44,894 nucleotides of DNA, taken from Herpetosiphonaceae bacterium (GTDB taxonomy: Bacteria; Chloroflexota; Chloroflexia; Chloroflexales; Kallotenuaceae). The notes under the pieces are model-generated. The model saw only the letters and a program-made list of their open reading frames with translations, searched no databases and had not been told where the DNA came from. Numbering within the stretch: the first letter of the stretch is position 1; each line of letters opens with the position of its first letter. This document shows positions 5,787 through 27,460 of this stretch, piece by piece. The DNA is taken from NCBI GenBank assembly GCA_013821605.1, contig JACDGP010000036.1, forward strand, positions 1 to 44,894, written 5' to 3'. The translations under genes and the position numbers were made by a program.

Positions 5787-6776
5787 ATGTGGGATGGCGA
5801 TCAGGACGAGGGTGATGCGACCATTGTCCAGGGCAGTATTGGCACAGCACTGGACCTTGCCGTTGCCGCTTGGCTTGATGCGAAAGGGGGACGCAGTGGG
5901 AGTGCGAAGACGCTGCGCGCCTACCACGACACGCTCCAGCGCTTCCGGCAGTGGCTACACACCCATCATGCTGACCTCGACAGCCCGCCGCAAGCCTTAG
6001 GCCTGCTGGCACAGCGCTGGGCCGGTCTGGATCAGCCAGCACCGGCCACCTATAACCAGCGTTTGGCGATCCTGTCCTCCTTTTACCGCTACGCTATTCG
6101 CCACGGGCTACTGACGACGACGAACCCGATCGATCAGGTGGAGCGACGCACGGTGGATAGCTACGGAGGCGCCGTACCGCTTGACCGTGATCGGCTGCGC
6201 GTGCTGCTCCAGGCCATTGATCGAACGACGCTCGCCGGGCAGCGCGACTATGCGCTCCTCGTGGTTGCCTTGCAGACTGGCCGGCGGCTAGGCGAGTTGG
6301 CGGGCATGCGGCTGGGTGACCTGCAGGTACGGGGTTCGACGATCACCGTAACTTGGCAGCGCACTAAGGGTGGCAAGACAATGCGTGATCGACTGGTATC
6401 CACGACGACGACGGCCGTGACTGCTTGGCTTCAAGCAATGCAAGCGGCGGTTCCTGGACCTTTTAGCGGGCGATCGCCAGTATGGTGCTCGCTGGCGATC
6501 AATAATCGCACACTGGGCCATCCACTAACGACACGTGCGATCAGTGACATTTGCCGGCTGCGGTTGGGAACGGGCAAGGTACACACCTTACGACATACCT
6601 TTGCGCGGGCAATGGAGGAGACGGGGGCCAAGGTATCGGAGATTCAGGCGCGACTAGGTCATACCTCGCTGGCGGTGACCGGTCGCTACCTGCAGGCACT
6701 ACGGGGTGACGATAACCAGCATGCAGCGGCAGTGTTACGCCTGTTAGGTGTCGAAGAGGTGGCTGGGGAGGAATGA
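5787..6776 (+). CDS. Tyrosine recombinase / phage-type integrase
   Basis: A 329-residue site-specific recombinase with an N-terminal SAM-like core-binding domain (about residues 20-115) and a C-terminal catalytic domain. The active-site set is complete: Arg167 in TGRRLGEL, a Lys in TKGGK (193-197), His266 and Arg269 in HTLRHTFAR, His292 in LGHTS, and the nucleophile Tyr301. It resembles XerC/D and phage integrases; I see no integron-specific insert I can point to. A GGGGAG ribosome site precedes the ATG by seven bases. No excisionase, phage or transposon genes lie beside it. The 40 bases after the stop contain a strong hairpin shared with the convergent gene. It may be the surviving recombinase of a decayed element. 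Confidence 0.92.
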   Translation: MWDGDQDEGDATIVQGSIGTALDLAVAAWLDAKGGRSGSAKTLRAYHDTLQRFRQWLHTHHADLDSPPQALGLLAQRWAGLDQPAPATYNQRLAILSSFYRYAIRHGLLTTTNPIDQVERRTVDSYGGAVPLDRDRLRVLLQAIDRTTLAGQRDYALLVVALQTGRRLGELAGMRLGDLQVRGSTITVTWQRTKGGKTMRDRLVSTTTTAVTAWLQAMQAAVPGPFSGRSPVWCSLAINNRTLGHPLTTRAISDICRLRLGTGKVHTLRHTFARAMEETGAKVSEIQARLGHTSLAVTGRYLQALRGDDNQHAAAVLRLLGVEEVAGEE

Positions 6777-6864: not shown

Positions 6865-7410
6865 CTATTGTCCTGAGGTTGCCGTTGCACTAGTGCTGGT
6901 TGCGCCACCTTGACGACCACCAAAGCCACCAAGACCACCGACTTGCACTGCAGAAGCCTGGAAAACACCTGCGACGCTGGTGCCAAAGGCCGTCAGGCGA
7001 TCCCCAACATGCACATCAGCGACTTGTGCATCGATCTGCTTACGAATGGTAGCATCCGCATTCAACTGCACCTGGGTGGTTGTATTATCATTTTTTTTGA
7101 CCGTGATGGTGGTTCCATTGATCTGAGTCACCGTTCCGTTCACGTTCTGACCGCCAGCTGCACCACGATTAGCCCGGCCCGCGCCCTGACCACCCGCTCC
7201 ACCGCCTCCGCCACCCGCACCGGTGGCTGCACCGCCGCTAGCACCACCGGCTCCGCCGGCACCACTGCCACCCCGGGCGTTCGTAAAGCTGTTAGCAGCC
7301 TGCTGAACCTGTGCCTGACCAACGGCTATGCCATTTTGGCGGCCCCCGTAAAAACCGCCAGCTGCCGCTACAACCAGCAGCACAACCCAAATGATTCGCT
7401 CTCGTAACAC
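6865..7410 (-). CDS. Membrane-anchored glycine-rich protein with DUF5666-like domain
   Basis: This 181-residue protein has one N-terminal membrane segment (about residues 6-22, IIWVVLLVVAAAGGFYGG), a roughly 40-residue stretch made almost only of Gly, Ala and a few Arg, and a small beta-rich domain (VNGTVTQINGTTITVKK ... VHVGDRLTAFG ... FQASAVQVG) that matches the DUF5666 pattern of short OB-like strands. A second Gly-rich tail ends the protein. It starts at a GTG with AGGAG about 10 bases upstream and follows the MacB-like permease by 28 bp, so it belongs to the export operon. It may sit on the outer face of the membrane beside the transporter; its function is unknown. Confidence 0.72.
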   Translation of the reverse strand: MLRERIIWVVLLVVAAAGGFYGGRQNGIAVGQAQVQQAANSFTNARGGSGAGGAGGASGGAATGAGGGGGGAGGQGAGRANRGAAGGQNVNGTVTQINGTTITVKKNDNTTTQVQLNADATIRKQIDAQVADVHVGDRLTAFGTSVAGVFQASAVQVGGLGGFGGRQGGATSTSATATSGQ

Positions 7411-7438: not shown

Positions 7439-8785
7439 CTAATCGTAGCGCAAGGCTACGATAGGGCTTAGAGCTGCGGCGCGGCGCGCCGGCTCGATGC
7501 CAAAAAATAGACCGACGGCCATCGCGAAACCGATGGACATGACGACAGAAAGTGGTGCGACCGAAGCCTGCACAATCCCGCTTAGGTTTACACCGAAGGC
7601 GATCAACATCCCTAGGATACAGCCAATCAGCCCGCCAGCGGTACTTAACGATAGTGCCTCGATCAAGAATTGGGTCAGAATGTCTTTCTCGCGTGCCCCC
7701 AGCGCTTTGCGGAGCCCGATCTCACGCGTCCGTTCACGGACCGAGACGAGCATAATATTCATGATGCCAATGCCACCGACGAGCAGCGAGATTGCGGCAA
7801 TCGCGCCGAGAAACAATGTTAACACCTTGGTCGATTGGACGGCTGTGTTCAGAATATCCTGCTGATTGATGATGCTGAAGTCGTCGGCTGTGCCATTCGC
7901 TGGCAGTTGATGACGATCACGGAGGACCGTGCTAATCTGGTCGAGTGCCGCGTTGATACTATTTGCGTCACGGGCCTGGACCACGATGCTCGACACTAGC
8001 AAGCCACCCCCACCGGTAATAGCGCGATCACCGAAGAGTTTGCGCTGAGCCGTACTGATGGGAACAATCACGCCATCATCGGTGGAACCAAAGCCGCTGC
8101 CGCCCTGCGCGTTCAATACGCCCACTACACGGAACGTCTGCCCGCGAATGCGCAACGACTGGCCCACCGGACTACCGCCAGGATAGAGTGTTTGAGCCAC
8201 ATTGGCACCCAGGACGACCACGTTGTCGATGCTGGTCACTTCGGCATCCGTGACAAACTCGCCATCGGCGAGCGACAGATTATGAATCTGTTGATAGCTC
8301 GGTTGCGCCCCGGTGATGCGGGCACCAAGGTTCTGGGAGCCGGCCACAAGTTGGGCACCACCACCACCGGACTCAGGCGATACGAGCAGGGCGGCCGGAA
8401 CGTTGTTGGGGTCGGCGATCGCTTGGGCATCCTGGATCGTTAAGGTCTGACCCGAGCCGAACTGACCCCGCGCACCACCCGCGTTGGCGGCCCCACCACG
8501 AACTGTGAGCATATTACTCCCATTCGCGGTGATTGAGGCGGCGATGGCATCTTGGGAACCCTTGCCGATAGCGAGCAAGGCGATGACCGCCATCACGCCG
8601 ATGATCACGCCCAACGATGTCAAAATCGTCCGTAGCTTATTGGCCATGAGGCTGGTGAAGGCCAGGCGTATGCTCTCGCCCAAGCTAATACCTTGCTCTT
8701 CGAGCACGATATCAACAGGCTCGTCCTCCGTCCTGATCGGGGTATTTTCCGCCGGTACTGCAATTTTTCGATCAGCTGTGAGCAT
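7439..8785 (-). CDS. MacB-like ABC transporter permease (FtsX family)
   Basis: A 448-residue permease of the MacB/LolC type. After a cytoplasmic N-terminus there is a first membrane helix ([22 protein letters not shown]), a long extracytoplasmic MacB_PCD domain of about 220 residues, and three C-terminal helices of the FtsX domain. The signature [27 protein letters not shown] lies before the third helix. Its start overlaps the end of the ATPase gene by 14 bp, so translation is likely coupled. Together with the ATPase and the adaptor it forms a tripartite-like efflux or mechanotransmission system. The substrate cannot be read from the sequence. Confidence 0.92.
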
Positions 8786-9488
8786 GCGCTACCTCCTCCT
8801 GACCTTTCCGAATGTCGCTGGCTAGCTGCCCGTCGCGGATCACCAACTGCCGCTCGGCATGGTCCGCAATATCAGGCTCGTGCGTCACGAGCACAACGGT
8901 AATGCCTTGGTCGTTCAGGTTTTTGAACAAGGCCATAATTTCCTCGCTGGCATGCGAGTCCAGATTGCCGGTCGGCTCGTCGGCCAGCAGCAGTGCCGGC
9001 CGAGTCACGAGACCGCGGGCGATGGCGACCCGTTGTTGCTGGCCGCCTGATAGCTCGCGTGGATGGTGGTCCATGCGGTCCCCCAGACCGACCGAATCGA
9101 GAGCCTCGGCGGCGCGCTGCTGGCGTTCTTCGGTACTGATGCCACCACGATAGACTAATGGTAGCTCGACATTCTCACGAGCAGTGCTGCGCGGGAGCAG
9201 ATTGAACTGCTGAAAGACGAAGCCGATCTTCCGATTACGGGCTACGGCCAGTTGGTTCTTGTCGAGCCGTTCGACGGGTACACCATCCAGCAGATAGCGG
9301 CCCGAGGTCGGCGTGTCAAGACAGCCGAGTAGGTTCATCAAGGTCGATTTGCCGGAGCCCGAGGGTCCCATGATCGCCACGAATTCCCCGGGGTGGATGG
9401 TGAAATCCACCCCACGTAAGGCTTGCACTTCGACATCGCCCATTTGATAGAATTTCTTCAGATCTTCGACCTGGATGATCGCAGCCAT
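8772..9488 (-). CDS. ABC transporter ATP-binding protein, MacB/LolD type
   Basis: This 238-residue ATPase energises the MacB-like permease next to it. Walker A is GPSGSGKST, the Q-loop lies in [22 protein letters not shown], the signature is LSGGQQQR, Walker B is [12 protein letters not shown], and the H-loop is in [10 protein letters not shown] chose the ATG at 9488 ([14 protein letters not shown]) because GGAGAG precedes it by a few bases; a longer frame would run 45 residues into the adaptor gene. The gap to the adaptor gene is 13 bp. The C-terminus overlaps the permease start. Confidence 0.94.
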
Positions 9489-9501
9489 GAAGCATCTCTC
9501 C

Positions 9502-12048
9502 TTAGCCGCCAGGTCGCCCGCCGCCAAGCAGCGGGTTCGTGGGTGTCGTTCCACCTCGGTTACCGCCGGTGGTACCACTACGTGGTGCTGCGGAACTGGG
9601 TAGGACCAACTGGTCACCAGCACGCAGGCATTGGTTGCCGGTATCGGTACAACCTGTCACCTCGGTTAGTGAGCCGTTGGTCGCGCCTGTGTCGATTGGA
9701 ACTGTCAGCGGTAGTTTGCGGTCGCCGTACTGGACCTGCACCGAGTGATTGGTGCCCTGGGTCGTGATCGCCCGGTTCGGGACGAGGATGGCATTCTTGA
9801 CCTGCTGGACCACAATACTGGCCGTCGAACTCATGCCCAGCTTGACCGGGGTTGCACCGGGATCGAACTTGACCTGCACCAGATAGGTCACGACGTTTTG
9901 CGTCACGACCGAGGTCGGCGCAACGTTCTCAACGGTACCGGCGAGGATGGCACCAGCCAGGGCATCAAAGGTTAGGCGTGCTGTCTGGCCCGCCTGGACG
10001 CGTGCTACGTCGCTCTCACTCATTGCGATATCGATGTGTAACGACGAGCGATCCTGGATCGAGACCGCCGTCGCGCTCGCAGCTACAATGCTCCCAGGGA
10101 CGATCGGGACTGATCCGACGATGCCGTCAAAAGGTGCGAAGAGGGTGGCACGATCAAGATTCAGGTGAGCTACCGCGAGTGCAGACTGGGCTTGAGCAAC
10201 ACCGGCCTCGGCTGTTGCAATGTCCGGTTCGGAGGCGGGTGCGGTTAACTTGTCTAAAGCGGAATGGGCTTGGTCAACCTGCGACTGCGCAGCTGCAACG
10301 TCGGCCGGTGTGCCACCTTGTTGTGCTTTGGCGAGCCCTGCTTGCGATTGGGTCAACGCGTCCTTGGCAATTGCGACATCGGAAGCCGTACCGCCCTGGG
10401 TCAGCTTAGCTAGCCCGGCATTCGCCTGATCGACCTGTGCCTGCGCCGCTGCAATGTCAGAAGCCGATGGGGGCTGTGAGAGCTTGGCCAACTGGGCATT
10501 CGCTTGGTCAACCTGCGACTGCGCAGCAGCAAGATCGGCAGCGGTGGGTCCTTGTCGCAACTTGGTCAACGCGGCGTTAGCTTGATCGACCTGCGACTGC
10601 GCTGCTGCGATATCTGCAGGTGTACCGCCCTGGGTAAGTTTAGCTAACGAAGCCTTGGCCTGATCAACGGCTGCCTGCAGCGGCACCAGATCAAGCGCCT
10701 TAGGTCCTTGCACGAGCGCGTTGAGCTGGTTCTGGGCGTCGGTGACTGCAGACTGTGCCGACGCATCATCGGTCACCTCTTGCTTCTGGGCCGTATCGTA
10801 GCTCACCTTGGCCTGCTCCAGCTTCGACTGCGCCTGCGACAGGACGAGCGTCGCCGTCTGCAACGCATTGGCATATTGCTGCTGCTGTGTGGCAGTGTCG
10901 AGCTTTTCTGAGGTAAAGCTCTTGCCGGTCTTGGGGTCGGTGCCGTTCTGGGCATTCTGGTTATCGTAGTAGGCGCTGGTATAACTGGTCTGAGCTGCAC
11001 GCACGGAGTCAGCCGCCTGATACATAGCCTGCTGTGCTGAGGTCTTGGCGGCGGAGTCGGTCGCGGCAGTACGATTAGCGCTTTGCTGCGCCTGCGTTAG
11101 CTTAGCCTGGGCTGCACTGACCTGCTCGGGGAGCGCGCCCTGCTGGGCCTGCGTCAGCTTGGCCTCGGCGCTCGTGACTGCAGCCTGGGCATTCGCGACA
11201 TCAGCAGGTGTAAAATTGCCGGTCTTGACCTTCTGGAGGTTGGCCTGGGCATTACGAATGCTGGCCTGAGCACTGGCGATATCGGCCGGTGTAGTGCTGC
11301 CGGTCTTGACCTTCTGAAGATTGGCCAGGGCACCGCGAACACTAGCCTGAGCACTGGCGATATCGGCCGGTGTAACCGTGCCGGTCCGGACCTTCTGGAG
11401 ATTAGCTTGGGCGTTGCGGACACTAGCCTGCGCGCTGGCGATATCGGCCGGTGTGGTGTTGCCCGTCTGCACCTGCTTCAGCTTGTCCGCAGACGCAGCA
11501 ACGGCGGCCTGCGCGTTCTGCACGTCCGCAGGCGTTAGATTGCCGGTGCGTGCCTTTTCGAGGCCAGCCTCGGCTGCGGCAACCTGTGCTTTGCTCGCAT
11601 TCAAATCATTTGGTGTCGCCGAGCCGTGCTGGGCCGTATCGAGCTTGGCCTGTGCGGCTTTCACTCCCGCCTCGGCCTGTCCGACTGCCAACTCTAAGTC
11701 GCGACTATCAAGGTGGGCCAGAACCTGTCCACTCTTGACTTGAGCGCCGACCTTGACCAGCACGTCTTTCACCTGACCACCCGTCTGGAAAGGCATATCA
11801 ACACTTCTGGCCGGTTGAACAGAGCCACTGCCGGAGACCGTAATCGAAAGATCTCCCTGGGTGACCGCTGCCGTCGGCGCCTTACTGGCCGTCGTCGTGG
11901 TTTGGGCCTGCGCGCGCCAGATGGCGAACAAGCCCAGCCCGATCCCGACCACGCCCAGCAGTGCCCAATACAGGGTACGCCGGCGTCCGCGCGTGGCCTG
12001 CGGTTGCTTCTCACTTTGATTCCGGTTGCCCGGCAATTGAACCTTCAT
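9502..12048 (-). CDS. Membrane fusion protein (MacA/HlyD family) with two long periodic helical arms
   Basis: An 848-residue adaptor, about twice the usual MacA length. Residues 27-45 form a membrane anchor; the lipoyl half-motifs are near 85-112 and 634-655, followed by a beta-barrel domain (660-800) and a Gly/Thr-rich tail. Between the lipoyl halves lie two repeat arrays. In the first arm a TPxD cap recurs at residues 145, 172, 199, 226, 253 and 280, exactly every 27 residues. In the second arm the matching Asp recurs at 453, 479, 505, 531, 557, 583 and 609, exactly every 26. The two arms presumably pack antiparallel as a very long hairpin. The ATG at 12048 has GGAGG nine bases upstream. 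It heads the operon adaptor-ATPase-permease-DUF5666-like. Confidence 0.92.
11212..11454 (-). repeat. Three near-identical 81-bp tandem repeats inside the adaptor gene
   Basis: These encode residues 199-279, three consecutive 27-residue units of the form [23 protein letters not shown]. The DNA copies are closer to one another than to the flanking units, which suggests recent internal duplication. The period is an exact multiple of three, so the frame is kept. Confidence 0.85.
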
Positions 12049-21840: not shown

Positions 21841-23913
21841 TTACTTTGCCGGCTTTAGATTGGTCACCACCAACATACCGGTGTGCGCCCAGAAGGCACC
21901 GTTCTCGCCATTTGCCACATTGGTGGCCAACGGCCAGTTCGTCCAATAGGTTTGGTTGTACGGGATGCGATGCAGCCACTGGATAACCGGCACATCAAGG
22001 GTATCGCGCCAGTAGATTTCCATGGCCTGTACAGCGAGGGCCTGGAACTTCGGATCATCTGCGGACAGCGGAGCCATCGCATCGACGATCTTGTCATATT
22101 CCGGGTTCTTGTAACGCGACCAGCGTCCGCCACCGGCTGCAACGCCATTGGGCTGGCTGAAGCGGCTTACATACAACTCGAAGGCGGCGTACGGGTCGAC
22201 CGTGCTCGCACCATGGCCAAACAGATAGAGGCCTGGCTTACCGTCGGCCATGTTCTGGCCAGAATCCGTACCGAAGTTGACACTGGCATCAAAGCCACCG
22301 GCCTTCAGCATTTCTACCAGCACCGGGGCGATGTCGCTGTGAATGCCTTCGAAGCCGTTGATCACGGCCGAGACGGTCTTGCCGTCCTTCTCCCAGAGGC
22401 CGTCGCCGTTCTTTGTGAAGCCTGCAGCAGTCATCAGCTTGCCGCTCTGGTCTAGATCAAAGGCACCCGGCTTGTATTTCGCCTCAAGTGCCTTGACCGC
22501 CGGCGAATCCGCAAACTTCTGCAAGTTGGGATACAGCGGGAAGGGATAGATCGAGGCGATCTTCGAGCCCTCATAAAGGACTTCGTTGATCTGGTCGCGA
22601 TTAATCGACAAGCTCATTGCCTTGCGAACGTTGGGATCGTTGTAGGGTGCCAATTGCGTGTTCATCCACAAGGAGTTCGGCCACCAGTCCAGATAGGCAT
22701 AGGGTGCCGCATTGCCGGTCCAACTCGTGATCTTCGGGTTCTGCTTGAGAATGTTCCCGATGACTGAGCTGCGCATGTCGAGCGACGAGTCCATCTCATT
22801 GTTGACTAAGCGCTGCGCAACGATGTCCATACCAGCACCGACCTGACCGCCGATGTTGACATACACGATGCGCTTGACGGCGGGTAGGGGCGCAATGCCG
22901 GCCTTGATGGCCCACCAGTCCGGCCGCACATCATAGATCTTCTGGTTCTTGTCCCATTGAACGAGATTATACGGGCCGGAGTGCGGCATTGCCAAGCCGC
23001 CCTGGTAGGCGTTCACATCCTTTTGCTTGCTGAGGTCATGCTCGGGGACGATCGCGATACCTGTATCGAACTTGAACGTGAGCACTTCGTATTTGAATCG
23101 TGGCGCGGGCACTTTGAAATTCACGGTAACGTTCTGGTCGTCATCAGCCTTGACGTCCTTGACGAACTGCACGAACTGCCCGTTATACCCCAGCTTGTTG
23201 TTCTTCATCTGCCCTTCGAAGGTATAGACGACGTCCTTGGAGGTCACGGGCTGGCCGTCACTCCACATCGCTTCCTTGCGGAGCTTGATCTTGAGCTGCG
23301 TAAAGTCTGCATTATAGGTCATGCTCTCGGCCAGCCAGGGGATATCTTTGCTGGCGAAGATGCCGTAGTAGGCCAACGCCTCCCACATCATGTTGTTGCC
23401 TTCTTGATGTGTATAGCCCGGCGAAGCCCATGGGTTGGTCACGCCGATTGGCGAACCAATGCTCCAGCCTAGAATGAGCTGTTGGTTGCGTGGAACATCC
23501 TTAAGAGGCCCTGCAGAAATAGGTGCCGGTGTGGGTGTTGCGGGTCCTGCGGTAGTTGCGCTGCCGGCAGCGGCAGCGGTGGTTGCGGCAGCGGCAGTCT
23601 CAGTTGTTGTAGCTGCCATGGTTGTGCCAGCTGCTTCGGTGGTTGCCGCCGCCATGGTCGCGGCTTCGGTGGTTGCTGCTGCCATGGTCGCGGCTTCGGT
23701 GGTTGCCGCCGCCATGGTTGCGGCTTCGGTGGTTGCTGCTGCCATGGTGGCGGCTGGCGCTTCGGTCGTTGCCGCGACAGCTACTGTTGCAGCTGGTGCC
23801 TGCGTTGCAGCTGGTGCCGTTGTGCTTTGCGCAACCGGTGCAGCCGTACCGCCACATGCTGCCAGAACCATCATCAAAATTGCGACTGCGGTGAGGGACT
23901 TTAGTCTGATCAT
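21841..23913 (-). CDS. Family 5 extracellular solute-binding lipoprotein
   Basis: A 690-residue binding protein that delivers its ligand to the adjacent DppBCDF-like importer. It begins with a lipoprotein signal ending in VLAAC (Cys20). Residues 21 to about 140 form a low-complexity Ala/Thr/Glu linker with four MAAATTEAAT-type repeats, followed by Pro-rich ATPTPAP. The folded part (about 150-690) has SBP_bac_5 features: WSDGQPVTSKDVVYTFEGQ near 240 and, later, LAPYNDPNVRKAMSLSINRDQINEVLYEG. Family 5 proteins carry peptides, nickel or oligosaccharides; the sugar-acid neighbours favour an oligosaccharide or sugar-acid ligand, which is inference. GAGGAG lies about 12 bases upstream of the ATG. 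Confidence 0.93.
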   Translation of the reverse strand: MIRLKSLTAVAILMMVLAACGGTAAPVAQSTTAPAATQAPAATVAVAATTEAPAATMAAATTEAATMAAATTEAATMAAATTEAATMAAATTEAAGTTMAATTTETAAAATTAAAAGSATTAGPATPTPAPISAGPLKDVPRNQQLILGWSIGSPIGVTNPWASPGYTHQEGNNMMWEALAYYGIFASKDIPWLAESMTYNADFTQLKIKLRKEAMWSDGQPVTSKDVVYTFEGQMKNNKLGYNGQFVQFVKDVKADDDQNVTVNFKVPAPRFKYEVLTFKFDTGIAIVPEHDLSKQKDVNAYQGGLAMPHSGPYNLVQWDKNQKIYDVRPDWWAIKAGIAPLPAVKRIVYVNIGGQVGAGMDIVAQRLVNNEMDSSLDMRSSVIGNILKQNPKITSWTGNAAPYAYLDWWPNSLWMNTQLAPYNDPNVRKAMSLSINRDQINEVLYEGSKIASIYPFPLYPNLQKFADSPAVKALEAKYKPGAFDLDQSGKLMTAAGFTKNGDGLWEKDGKTVSAVINGFEGIHSDIAPVLVEMLKAGGFDASVNFGTDSGQNMADGKPGLYLFGHGASTVDPYAAFELYVSRFSQPNGVAAGGGRWSRYKNPEYDKIVDAMAPLSADDPKFQALAVQAMEIYWRDTLDVPVIQWLHRIPYNQTYWTNWPLATNVANGENGAFWAHTGMLVVTNLKPAK
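23641..23760 (-). repeat. Four 30-bp in-frame tandem repeats in the lipoprotein linker
   Basis: Four copies of a 30-bp unit encode the MAAATTEAAT repeats. Copies 1 and 3 carry GCCGCCGCC where copies 2 and 4 carry GCTGCTGCC, so the array looks like a duplicated 60-bp dimer. Such repeats are prone to length changes that alter only the linker. Confidence 0.85.
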
Positions 23914-24133: not shown

Positions 24134-27100
24134 ATGGCAGCAACACCGGATAGTGTACCTGATACTGTCAATGCGTGGGCTGAAACTATTCATCTTCTAA
24201 CATACGGTGTCGGGCAACCTGATAAAAACCCGATGTTTCTGGAAAAGCGTGTCTATCAAGGGAGTAGTGGGGTTGTTTATCCCTATCCGGTGATTGACCG
24301 CGTCTTTGACGAAAAGACCGACCAACCCTATACCGCGCTATTCCTCGAAAACCGCTACCTCAAGATCATGATTCTGCCCGAACTCGGTGGTCGAGTCCAG
24401 ATGGCGCAGGATAAGACTAACGCTTATCACTTCATTTATTATAACCACGTTATCAAACCAGCGCTCGTGGGGTTGACCGGACCCTGGATCTCGGGCGGCA
24501 TCGAGTTCAACTGGCCGCAACACCACCGTCCTAGCACGTTCAGCCCCGTGGACTGGCGCATCGTTGAGAATAGTGACGGGAGCAAAACGGTGTGGTGCTC
24601 GGAAATCGAGCGCATGTTTTTCACGAAAGGTATGCACGGCTTCAGGCTCCACCCTGATCGTGCATATCTTGAGATCAACGTACAACTCTATAACCGCACG
24701 AGCGAACCACAGACGTTCCTGTGGTGGGCGAACCCGGCGGTCGCGGTTAATGACGACTACCAATCGGTGTTCCCGCCTGATGTGCATGCGGTGATGGACC
24801 ACGGCAAACGGGATGTCAGCGATTTCCCCTTAGCGATCGGCACCTACTACAAGGTGAACTACGCGCCGGGCACGGACATCTCGCGCTACAAGAACATTCC
24901 TGTGCCGACGTCTTATATGGCGTATCACTCCGATTTTGACTTCGTGGGCCATTATGACCACGGGCGGCAGGCCGGTATGTTGCACGTGGCGAATCATCAT
25001 ATCGTGCCTGGCAAGAAGCAATGGACCTGGGGTAACGGCGATTTTGGTCGGGCTTGGGATCGTCAACTCACCGATGAGGATGGTCCCTATATCGAATTAA
25101 TGTGTGGAGCATTCACGGATAATCAGCCTGATTTTTCATGGCTGATGCCCGGTGAAGAAAAGTGCTTCACACACATATTCATGCCTTATAAGCTGATCGG
25201 GCCGCCCCAAAACGCGAGTCAGGATGTATTGGTAAGGCTTGAAGTTCGTGCCGGTCGTGCCGCAGTTGGCGTCTACCTATCCCGACCATGCCAAGCCACT
25301 GTGGAGTTGTGGCATGAGCGGGCATTGCTTTGGACAACGACCAGGCTGCTTTCGCCGGAGCAGGCGCTGATCGAGGCGATTGCGGTGGCAGAAGATGTGC
25401 GACCGGAGCAGGTGACACTACGGGTAAGCGATGCACAGACCAAGCACGAGTTGATCACCTATACCCCTTTACCGCGTGAGCAAACCGTCATTCCTGCACC
25501 CGCTCAGGCCGCCAAATTACCAAGCGACATTGCCTCGAATGAAGAATTGTTTCTCCAGGGCTTGCATTTGGAGCAATACCGTCACGCTACCTATGCGCCG
25601 GAGCCATACTACCAAGAAGCGTTACGCCGTGATCCCTACGATAGCCGCTGTAATAACGCCCTGGGCTTGCTGCTTTACCGCCGAGGTGTGTTCAGTGAGG
25701 CCGAACAGTTTTTCCGGCAAGCGATCAGGAGCTTGACGCGGCGCAACCCAAATCCCTATGACGGCGAACCATTCTATAATCATGGGCTAGCGTTGAAGAT
25801 GCAAGGGCGGTACCGTGAAGCCTTTGATGCCTTCTATAAGGCAGTGTGGAATGCTGCCTGGCAGGATAGTGGGTACTTTGAGCTTGCACGGCTGGCAGCA
25901 CGTTTTGGCGATATGGAGCAAGCGCTGGAGCTGGCGAACAATGCCCTTCGCCGCAACGGGAGCCACCACCAGGCGTACCATCTCAAGATTGCTTTGTTAC
26001 GGTATGTAGGCCGAACGGATGAAGCTGTACAAGCAACGCTCCACGCCCTGGAACTCGATCTTTTCGATTGGGGTGCGCTGTGGGAGCGCAGATTGCTGAC
26101 TGATGATCCGACCTTCGTACGGCTGGCGCGTGGCAATAGTGATACCTATGTTGCCCTTGCACTTGATTACATGCATGCTGGCCTGCTTGCTGATGCGATC
26201 ATGCTGCTCGAAGCCATACCACAACTCGATCCGCTGGCAATGTATTTCCTGGGAGCGTGTTATCTGCAGCAAGGTGCTACGTCGCATGCGCAGGCCATTT
26301 TCCAGCAGGCCAACGCGCTGCCGCCCGATTATTGCTTCCCACATCGTTTGGAAAGTGTCCTGGCACTCCAAGATGCACAAGCCATTTGTCCAATGGATGC
26401 TCGTGCCCCGTATTACCTGGGCAATTTCTGGTATGCGCACCGGCGCTACGATGAGGCAATTAAGAGTTGGGAACGGGCGCGCGAACTTGACCGGGATTTC
26501 GCAACGACCCATCGTAATTTAGGCTTAGCCTATGTTAATAAGCTGCACGACTTTGAGCATGCTCGAGCAGCCTATGAGCGGGCTTTTGCGCTAAACCCGG
26601 ACGATGCACGTGTGTTCTTTGAGCTTGACCAGTTGGAGAAGAAATTTAACAGTTTACCGCAGGCACGCTTGGAGCGGCTCCACAAGCACCTCGATCTGGT
26701 TGAACGGCGCGACGACTTGACCATCGAATACATCACGCTGCTTAATATGCTGGGCCATTACGAGACGGCCTACACCATGTTAATACAGCGCCAGTTCCAC
26801 CCATGGGAAGGTGGTGAAGGTAAGACGACCGGGCAGTACGTCATCAACCTTGTGGCGCAAGCGCGGAAGTTGATGGCGGCCAGGGAGTACCTAGCGGCGG
26901 CAGAACGGCTTGAGCAGGCCCGGGTATATCCACATAATTTAGGTGAGGGCAAGCTGCCTAACGCACAGGAAAACAATATCCTGTACTACCTTGGTCTGGC
27001 GTATGAGGGCCAGGGTGACATCGCCCGCGCGCATACGTGCTATGAGCAGGCATCTGTGGGCTTAAGTGAACCGACCTCAGCAATATACTACAATGACCAG

Positions 27101-27460
27101 CCGCCAGATATGATCTTCTACCAAGGACTAGCCCTGCAGCAATTGGGGCGTGAGGCCGAGGCGCAGCATGTGTTTCGCAAGCTTGTGGCATATGGACAGA
27201 CGCATCTGAATGATGACGTGCATATGGATTACTTTGCAGTGTCGCTGCCCACCTTTCTCGTTTTCGACGAAGATCTGAACGAGCGCAACCATATCCATTG
27301 CCACTACATGCTAGGGTTGGGACAACTAGGTCTGGGAAACGTGGCCGAGGCTCAGTCCCACTTTGAGCGCGTCCTGGCACTCGACGCTCATCATCAAGGC
27401 GCCTGGATGCACCAGACGTTCCAAGCCGCTCAGGCCAGCTTTAGCACAATCAAGGAGTAA
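24134..27460 (+). CDS. DUF5107 domain protein with C-terminal TPR array
   Basis: This 1108-residue protein has no signal peptide and is likely cytoplasmic. Roughly the first 360 residues form the DUF5107 domain, a beta-rich, mutarotase-like fold (ENRYLKIMILPELGGRV is a typical early strand pair; GGIEFNWPQHHRPSTFSPVDW and the WTWGNGDFG segment are strongly conserved-looking). A linker of about 100 residues leads to a TPR superhelix (about 470-1100), with units such as NALGLLLYRRGVFSEAEQFFRQAI and NLGLAYVNKLHDFEHARAAYERAFALNPDDA. AAGGA lies nine bases before the ATG. It is the first gene of the plus operon, with the next gene 1 bp away. A carbohydrate-binding or carbohydrate-acting role is inferred from fold and context only. 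Confidence 0.85.
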   Translation: MAATPDSVPDTVNAWAETIHLLTYGVGQPDKNPMFLEKRVYQGSSGVVYPYPVIDRVFDEKTDQPYTALFLENRYLKIMILPELGGRVQMAQDKTNAYHFIYYNHVIKPALVGLTGPWISGGIEFNWPQHHRPSTFSPVDWRIVENSDGSKTVWCSEIERMFFTKGMHGFRLHPDRAYLEINVQLYNRTSEPQTFLWWANPAVAVNDDYQSVFPPDVHAVMDHGKRDVSDFPLAIGTYYKVNYAPGTDISRYKNIPVPTSYMAYHSDFDFVGHYDHGRQAGMLHVANHHIVPGKKQWTWGNGDFGRAWDRQLTDEDGPYIELMCGAFTDNQPDFSWLMPGEEKCFTHIFMPYKLIGPPQNASQDVLVRLEVRAGRAAVGVYLSRPCQATVELWHERALLWTTTRLLSPEQALIEAIAVAEDVRPEQVTLRVSDAQTKHELITYTPLPREQTVIPAPAQAAKLPSDIASNEELFLQGLHLEQYRHATYAPEPYYQEALRRDPYDSRCNNALGLLLYRRGVFSEAEQFFRQAIRSLTRRNPNPYDGEPFYNHGLALKMQGRYREAFDAFYKAVWNAAWQDSGYFELARLAARFGDMEQALELANNALRRNGSHHQAYHLKIALLRYVGRTDEAVQATLHALELDLFDWGALWERRLLTDDPTFVRLARGNSDTYVALALDYMHAGLLADAIMLLEAIPQLDPLAMYFLGACYLQQGATSHAQAIFQQANALPPDYCFPHRLESVLALQDAQAICPMDARAPYYLGNFWYAHRRYDEAIKSWERARELDRDFATTHRNLGLAYVNKLHDFEHARAAYERAFALNPDDARVFFELDQLEKKFNSLPQARLERLHKHLDLVERRDDLTIEYITLLNMLGHYETAYTMLIQRQFHPWEGGEGKTTGQYVINLVAQARKLMAAREYLAAAERLEQARVYPHNLGEGKLPNAQENNILYYLGLAYEGQGDIARAHTCYEQASVGLSEPTSAIYYNDQPPDMIFYQGLALQQLGREAEAQHVFRKLVAYGQTHLNDDVHMDYFAVSLPTFLVFDEDLNERNHIHCHYMLGLGQLGLGNVAEAQSHFERVLALDAHHQGAWMHQTFQAAQASFSTIKE

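Follow-up and report, generated by a model that had tools for sequence, protein, structure and literature searches.

A repeat lattice in the long hairpin of a Chloroflexota periplasmic adaptor suggests a stalk of stacked paired rungs

Introduction

The hairpins of solved periplasmic adaptors span 27-127 Å (PMC4158417), and it is already known that adaptor hairpins lengthen and shorten by heptads in both helices (PMC4446572). The crystal structure of EmrA from Aquifex aeolicus contains a two-stranded hairpin of 127 Å in which both helices are disrupted near the middle by insertions, 4 residues outward and 3 inward, that leave the antiparallel hairpin intact (PMC4158417). In adaptors that lack a TolC-type partner the hairpin is retained and enlarged, for reasons that the literature has not settled (PMC4446572).

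Here we describe an adaptor, P0001, encoded in a window of 44,894 nucleotides (the whole stretch of DNA that was analysed) from a Herpetosiphonaceae bacterium of the phylum Chloroflexota. Among described systems, MacA is its best PDB match, namely over the lipoyl and barrel domains, and the P0001 gene adjoins genes for a MacB-type ATPase and permease. However, the 67 Å hairpin of MacA (length: PMC4158417) is without the repeat lattice found in P0001, and MacA binds TolC through an RLS motif, whereas both motif and TolC are absent for P0001 and its genome. YbhG of E. coli, the HlyD_D23 adaptor of the YbhFSR ABC exporter, has one G-x-x-x-x-[DE]-I break per arm. The outgoing break follows the LD of the first lipoyl half at a distance of 32 residues and the returning one precedes the AP of the second half by 29, and these are the distances of the basal breaks throughout the Chloroflexota set. 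YbhG thus has one break pair in a hairpin of 132 residues, while P0001 has seven pairs in 523 residues. EmrA resembles P0001 in having a paired break with a one-residue difference between the helices, but its disruption is a single one in 168 residues, in contrast to seven in a regular lattice. Gram-positive adaptors (YknX, MesE and others) likewise do without an outer-membrane factor, and some have very large hairpins of unexplained role (PMC4446572); tandem rungs or arms matched by whole rungs were not described for them in the literature searched. We consider it probable that the hairpin of P0001 is a stalk of stacked paired rungs on the adaptor of a MacB-type ABC exporter.

Results and Discussion

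The adaptor gene and its operon

The adaptor gene (9502..12048, minus strand) encodes a protein of 848 aa. In an NCBIfam profile search P0001 exceeded the cut-off of TIGR01730 RND_mfp (131.7 bits against 94.9), and it also scored above the Pfam cut-offs of HlyD_3 (53.1 vs 22.2) and HlyD_D23 (45.1 vs 30). Scores against the equivalog models of MacA (NF008606, 63.2 bits) and YbhG (NF002939, 115.8 bits) lay below the respective cut-offs of 342 and 393. Judged by its profiles and its best PDB match, P0001 is a MacA/YbhG-like periplasmic adaptor of the HlyD family, whose operon also contains genes for a MacB-type ATPase and permease.

The protein has a putative N-terminal membrane anchor at residues 24-44 (11917..11979, minus strand), which is hydrophobic and contains a predicted helix at 24-41; with this anchor and an adjoining inner-membrane pump P0001 has the arrangement characteristic of its family. 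Several paralogs carry a lipobox (LTACAA, LSACAG or LAACAG) in place of the anchor. The first lipoyl half (residues 62-114; 11707..11865, minus strand) was delimited by alignment of relatives and by a match to Biotin_lipoyl_2 at 88-114 that remained below the Pfam cut-off (24.6 vs 29.8). The second lipoyl half and the beta-barrel (residues 638-811; 9616..10137, minus strand) were placed by HlyD_3 (635-735), HlyD_D23 (630-712) and the alignment with MacA. The lipoyl domain is therefore split, with halves at 88-114 and from 635 onward and predicted helices of a hairpin between them.

Downstream of the adaptor gene and on the same strand lie genes for a MacB/LolD-type ATPase (8772..9488; likely start inside a longer ORF, 8772-9623; ABC_tran 2e-37; MacB as best NCBIfam match) and for a MacB-type permease (7439..8785; MacB_PCD PF12704 3e-44, FtsX PF02687 2.8e-19). 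A permease with MacB_PCD and FtsX domains and a MacB-class ATPase on a separate chain identify a MacB-type mechanotransmission ABC system. The last gene of the apparent operon is an ORF (6865..7410, minus strand) for a small, presumably exported protein whose N-terminus resembles a signal sequence and which contains a Gly-rich stretch and a short domain (NGTVTQINGTTITVKKNDN); Pfam gave no match for it.

A search for relatives of P0001 returned only distant proteobacterial adaptors from genome contigs and nothing from viral contigs, and no relative covering 80% of P0001 was found on plasmids, where cyanobacterial adaptors were the best matches. The proteobacterial adaptors were set aside from the P0001 alignment because they fell wrongly on the returning arm.

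A repeat lattice in two arms

The hairpin between the lipoyl halves of P0001 comprises 220 + 89 + 214 residues (523 in total), and the claim of the first-pass annotation that its arms are far longer than those of MacA was borne out by comparison with the MacA hairpin of 67 Å (PMC4158417). It consists of an outgoing arm A (residues 115-334; 11047..11706, minus strand) with TPxD breaks at period 27, a tip domain (residues 335-424; 10777..11046, minus strand) placed between invariant K335 and E424 in the alignment of relatives, and a returning arm B (residues 425-637; 10138..10776, minus strand) with an Asp series at period 26. The periods had been described as strict, and this is exactly what we found: the six TPxD motifs fall at residues 145, 172, 199, 226, 253 and 280 (five exact intervals of 27), and the seven Asp at residues 453, 479, 505, 531, 557, 583 and 609 (six exact intervals of 26). 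Self-identity was 0.48 at lag 27 in arm A and 0.53 at lag 26 in arm B. For shuffled sequences (500 shuffles), the maximum across lags had a mean of 0.16 (A) and 0.19 (B) and never exceeded 0.20 and 0.24, respectively. The further statement that each unit ends in Gly applies to most units, but two units of arm B end with Pro instead (SQPP and TAPA). A seventh, weaker break in arm A (GALPEQV, around residue 307, spacing 26) means that seven breaks face seven.

The repeats are also visible at the DNA level, with 81 bp in arm A and 78 bp in arm B. Identity between units reached up to 81% within arm A, and the best identity of an A unit to a B unit was 57%, which suggests that the arms were lengthened by separate duplications and kept equal afterwards. 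We rejected the possibility of an assembly artefact, given that the DNA of the units diverges by about 19% or more and that many genomes contain the lattice.

Unit anatomy and structure models

We sorted about 730 distinct units from about 140 proteins by length. In units of 25, 26 or 27 residues the helix ended with a Gly or Pro at position 22, counting from the Asp, and in the longer units (32 and 33 residues) this Gly or Pro lay at position 29. The helical core thus measures 22 residues (three heptads plus one) or 29 residues (four heptads plus one), and with cores equal, the period differences within a class lie only in the linker of 3, 4 or 5 residues. P0001 has a 22-residue core in both arms and a linker of 5 residues in the outgoing and 4 in the returning arm. 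The initial suggestion that a one-residue difference in period would make the arms slip against each other is not supported by this anatomy, because the difference sits in the linker (5 vs 4) and the helix of 22 residues is the same in both arms. Periods of 27|26 and 26|26 are used interchangeably among relatives, as seen from arm lengths of 112/110 and 110/110. A survey of homologues, which had been proposed as a check, found periods of 25, 26, 27, 32-33 and 39-40 that are regular and in step between the arms; irregular periods were not found among them. Two proteins from other Chloroflexota families (L142 and L061) have a period of 32-33 in both arms, one heptad above 26, and the units of L142 are near-identical (DPKDVKLREEQLASAQ). 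A core of 7k+1 residues, a linker of 3-5 residues and the same order in both arms represent a rule that would be a natural design for extensible two-helix stalks.

The idea that the arms are chains of short helices found support in this analysis, although the structural part of that support is of low confidence. An AF2 model of the whole of P0001, computed without an alignment (mean pLDDT 47), placed helix breaks at unit boundaries in both arms, with predicted helices at 146-167, 173-195, 200-221, 227-245 and 254-275 in arm A and at 455-472, 477-498, 503-520, 529-550, 555-576, 581-602 and 607-636 in arm B; the Gly or Pro at position 22 points the same way. A model of residues 250-510, covering the tip and two units per arm, gave a long helical hairpin (mean pLDDT 79.8) with helices at 281-367 and 385-446. 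A Foldseek search with this fragment returned generic antiparallel hairpins only, with E values above 0.1 and none significant.

If each arm were instead one continuous helix, the hairpin would be a single smooth coiled coil that absorbs the periods of 27 and 26 as stutters. Solved adaptors as a rule have antiparallel helical hairpins, the heptad a/d positions run through each unit, and the helix predicted at 281-367 spans the GALP site where a break would be expected. Yet almost all boundaries contain Gly or Pro together with T/S-P-x-D, the model places helix breaks at the units, and the heptad phase is reset in each unit. Moreover, 27 residues over 7 turns would amount to 3.86 residues per turn, which to our knowledge is outside the values of coiled coils. 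We regard continuous helices as improbable and favour a segmented stalk, in which a rung would consist of one outgoing helix of 22 residues antiparallel to one returning helix of 22 residues, and both chains would break at the same height between rungs, through 5 linker residues on the way out and 4 on the way back. As only the linkers differ, the mismatch of 27 and 26 would cause no slip.

For the reach of such a stalk we multiplied about 265 residues, taken as straight, by 1.5 Å per residue and obtained about 40 nm, an arithmetic upper bound given that the linkers could bend the chain. With its seven break pairs and conserved tip, the hairpin could extend from the lipoyl domain by up to this distance, and its reach may be several times that of any solved relative cited here.

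Pairing of the two arms

As landmarks for arm length we used only conserved features, namely the point where the first lipoyl half ends, the invariant residues K335 and E424, and the APFDG motif. Among about 100 relatives the outgoing and returning lengths closely followed each other, both in longer forms (220/214, 218/214, 193/188, 189/188 and 166/162) and in shorter ones (139/136, 124/124, 112/110, 110/110 and 91/90), and a single case of unequal arms (112/136) was found. Unit numbers, determined for 98 relatives, were four per arm in 76 proteins, five in 11, three in four, seven in three, eight in two and six in one, and only one protein combined four units with five. The protein with unequal arms (L058, G004:C293) is one unit short in the outgoing arm compared to its sister L010 (139/136), which could be the result of a recent deletion or, alternatively, of a collapsed repeat in a draft assembly. 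In a tree of the non-repeat domains, longer and shorter stalks occurred in several separate clades: P0001 (220/214) clustered with two proteins of 111/109, and its paralog L002 (218/214) with one protein of 166/162 and one of 139/136.

The heights of the breaks also corresponded between arms. Agreement was 0.825 for arms of the same protein, compared to 0.506 (sd 0.036, maximum 0.624 in 2000 permutations) when arms were exchanged between proteins, and it collapsed when one arm was slid by about 5 residues or more. Proteins with mixed units allowed a comparison of unit order, for which units of 26, 33 and 40 residues were coded as S, L and X and read from the base. The same order was present in both arms in SSSSLLL (L134), SSSLLLL (L128), SSSLXL (L139 and L146), SLLLX (L149) and SLLLLLL (L151), and by automatic reading 15 of 19 mixed proteins showed exact mirror order. 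Controls gave at most 11 of 19 with arms exchanged and at most 10 of 19 with order shuffled (5000 trials each). Some of the four proteins not scored as mirrored look like phase errors of one heptad. These three tests, on arm length, break height and unit order, depend on the same break model and landmarks, and the last two overlap in the proteins used; all three say that the outgoing and returning arms pair with each other.

The pairing bears on two other explanations. One is that there is no stalk and that the 22-residue helices of each arm pack against one another in a bundle or solenoid. The chain could turn back in the linkers of 3-5 residues, and CusB, whose hairpin folds back into a shorter bundle (PMC4446572), would be a precedent. 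Only pairing between the two arms would, however, lead one to expect matched unit numbers and a mirrored order, and where the core is longer, it is so by whole heptads and at the same level of each arm. We therefore think such a fold has little probability. The other is that the repeats are products of neutral slippage or unequal crossing-over in low-complexity DNA and that their length is without functional meaning. Tandem repeats of 81 and 78 bp, a variable number of units and an Ala/Gln-rich sequence would agree with this, but the two arms, although mutating separately in DNA, have remained equal in the number and order of their units throughout the phylum, unequal arms were found in only 1 of 98 relatives, and lengths are coherent within genomes at matched divergence (see below). 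Neutral origin of the lengths is therefore very improbable in our estimation. In the paired stalk that we prefer, growth would have proceeded by separate tandem duplications in each arm, and since the arms must pair, mismatched ones would be removed by selection. The stalk resembles a hairpin of YbhG type in which the basal rung was multiplied.

Pumps, tip and outer-membrane factor

Other lattice adaptors in this genome adjoin three kinds of pump, namely MacB-type ABC genes (three loci), an AcrB-type RND pump (C152) and an MFS pump (C9). The genes are located at L121:2775-4157, L122:5740-7896, L119:6477-8957, L120:2824-4923 and L123:6201-7295, and their neighbourhoods comprise TetR-MFS-adaptor, RND-adaptor-MarR and MacB-type arrangements.

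A search of the source genome for TolC-type outer-membrane efflux proteins (OEP, PF02321) and for Omp85 found neither, while both models matched in 7 of 14 control genomes. OEP matches in Chloroflexales were few and most of them weak; some were partial and one lay inside an adaptor frame (G012:C232). Strong matches were limited to G058:C131 and G061:C930, and as these two genomes are drafts of 72% and 86% completeness, contamination is possible.

MacA, AcrA and HlyD hold TolC by an RLS/RLT motif. The pattern R-x3-L-x6-[ST] is absent from the tip of P0001, and 4 of 96 tips contained the RLS motif where 3.6 would be expected from shuffles, which accords with the absence of TolC. The tip is nevertheless conserved, with K335, Q353 and E424 invariant across 16 diverse relatives, and it should therefore have a partner. 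The stalk might carry this tip, and perhaps also the exit of the pump, across a thick envelope to an envelope layer. We infer that a straight stalk, joined with others into an oligomeric tube, could cross the envelope in this way without an outer-membrane factor.

The same genome further encodes an M23 peptidase of 603 aa (L118:6680-8491, plus strand; G000:C108, about 24.7-26.5 kb) whose N-terminal coiled coil shows homology to the hairpin and tip of the adaptor (QNQQAQLGIDPQTSQRF; BLAST 1e-18). Relatives of this protein mostly share the M23 part only, so that here a cell-wall peptidase has apparently acquired a segment of the stalk.

Stalk length within genomes

Adaptors of the same genome with 30-50% identity outside the stalk differed in stalk length by a median of only 3-11 residues, whereas adaptors of different families at matched non-stalk identity (30-50%) differed by 83-118 residues. 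Clustering of lengths to this degree was reached by none of 20,000 permutations, for which one genome per family was used and close paralogs were thinned. This suggests that the organism and not the pump sets the length of the stalk. Stalk sequences within a genome are also somewhat more alike than their flanks predict, and exchange or recombination between paralogous stalks may therefore contribute to the coherence of length. Several genomes contained two or more length classes, such as G237 (about 319 and 379), G380 (about 393 and 529), G286 and G276.

The envelopes of Chloroflexales are layered and differ by species: C. aggregans has a diderm-like outer layer, which Roseiflexus lacks, and tomograms exist for several cultured members (PMC7332563). 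The stalk could be imagined as an adjustable ruler, in which paired rungs are gained or lost until the tip meets a fixed layer of the envelope, different pumps converge in their reach, and the role of exit duct passes from the outer-membrane factor to the adaptor oligomer. We offer this only as a tentative and rather doubtful proposal. Alternatively, the stalk might be a chaperone cage or a surface for handling exported proteins, with neither conduit nor tip carried across the wall; a role in folding was raised for the hairpins of Gram-positive adaptors in a 2015 review (PMC4446572). Taken alone, such a function leaves unexplained both the strict pairing of rungs and the coherence of length across ABC, RND and MFS pumps, whose substrates are mostly small molecules, and we consider it unlikely.

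Neither a tandem rung lattice nor the rule of 7k+1 plus linker nor length coherence within genomes was described in the part of the literature that we covered. Read as a stalk of paired rungs, the hairpin would represent a readable code in the number and length of rungs, matched between arms and with lengths that cluster by genome, and this code makes the question why hairpins were enlarged a testable one.

Other genes in the window

The exporter operon is adjoined by a gene for a tyrosine recombinase with Phage_integrase and SAM-like N domains (5787-6776, plus strand). Further along the window, a protein of 1108 aa (24134-27460, plus strand) combines a DUF5107 domain with many subsequent TPR repeats, and genes for a solute-binding protein (21841-23913) and GFO/IDH oxidoreductases are located near it.
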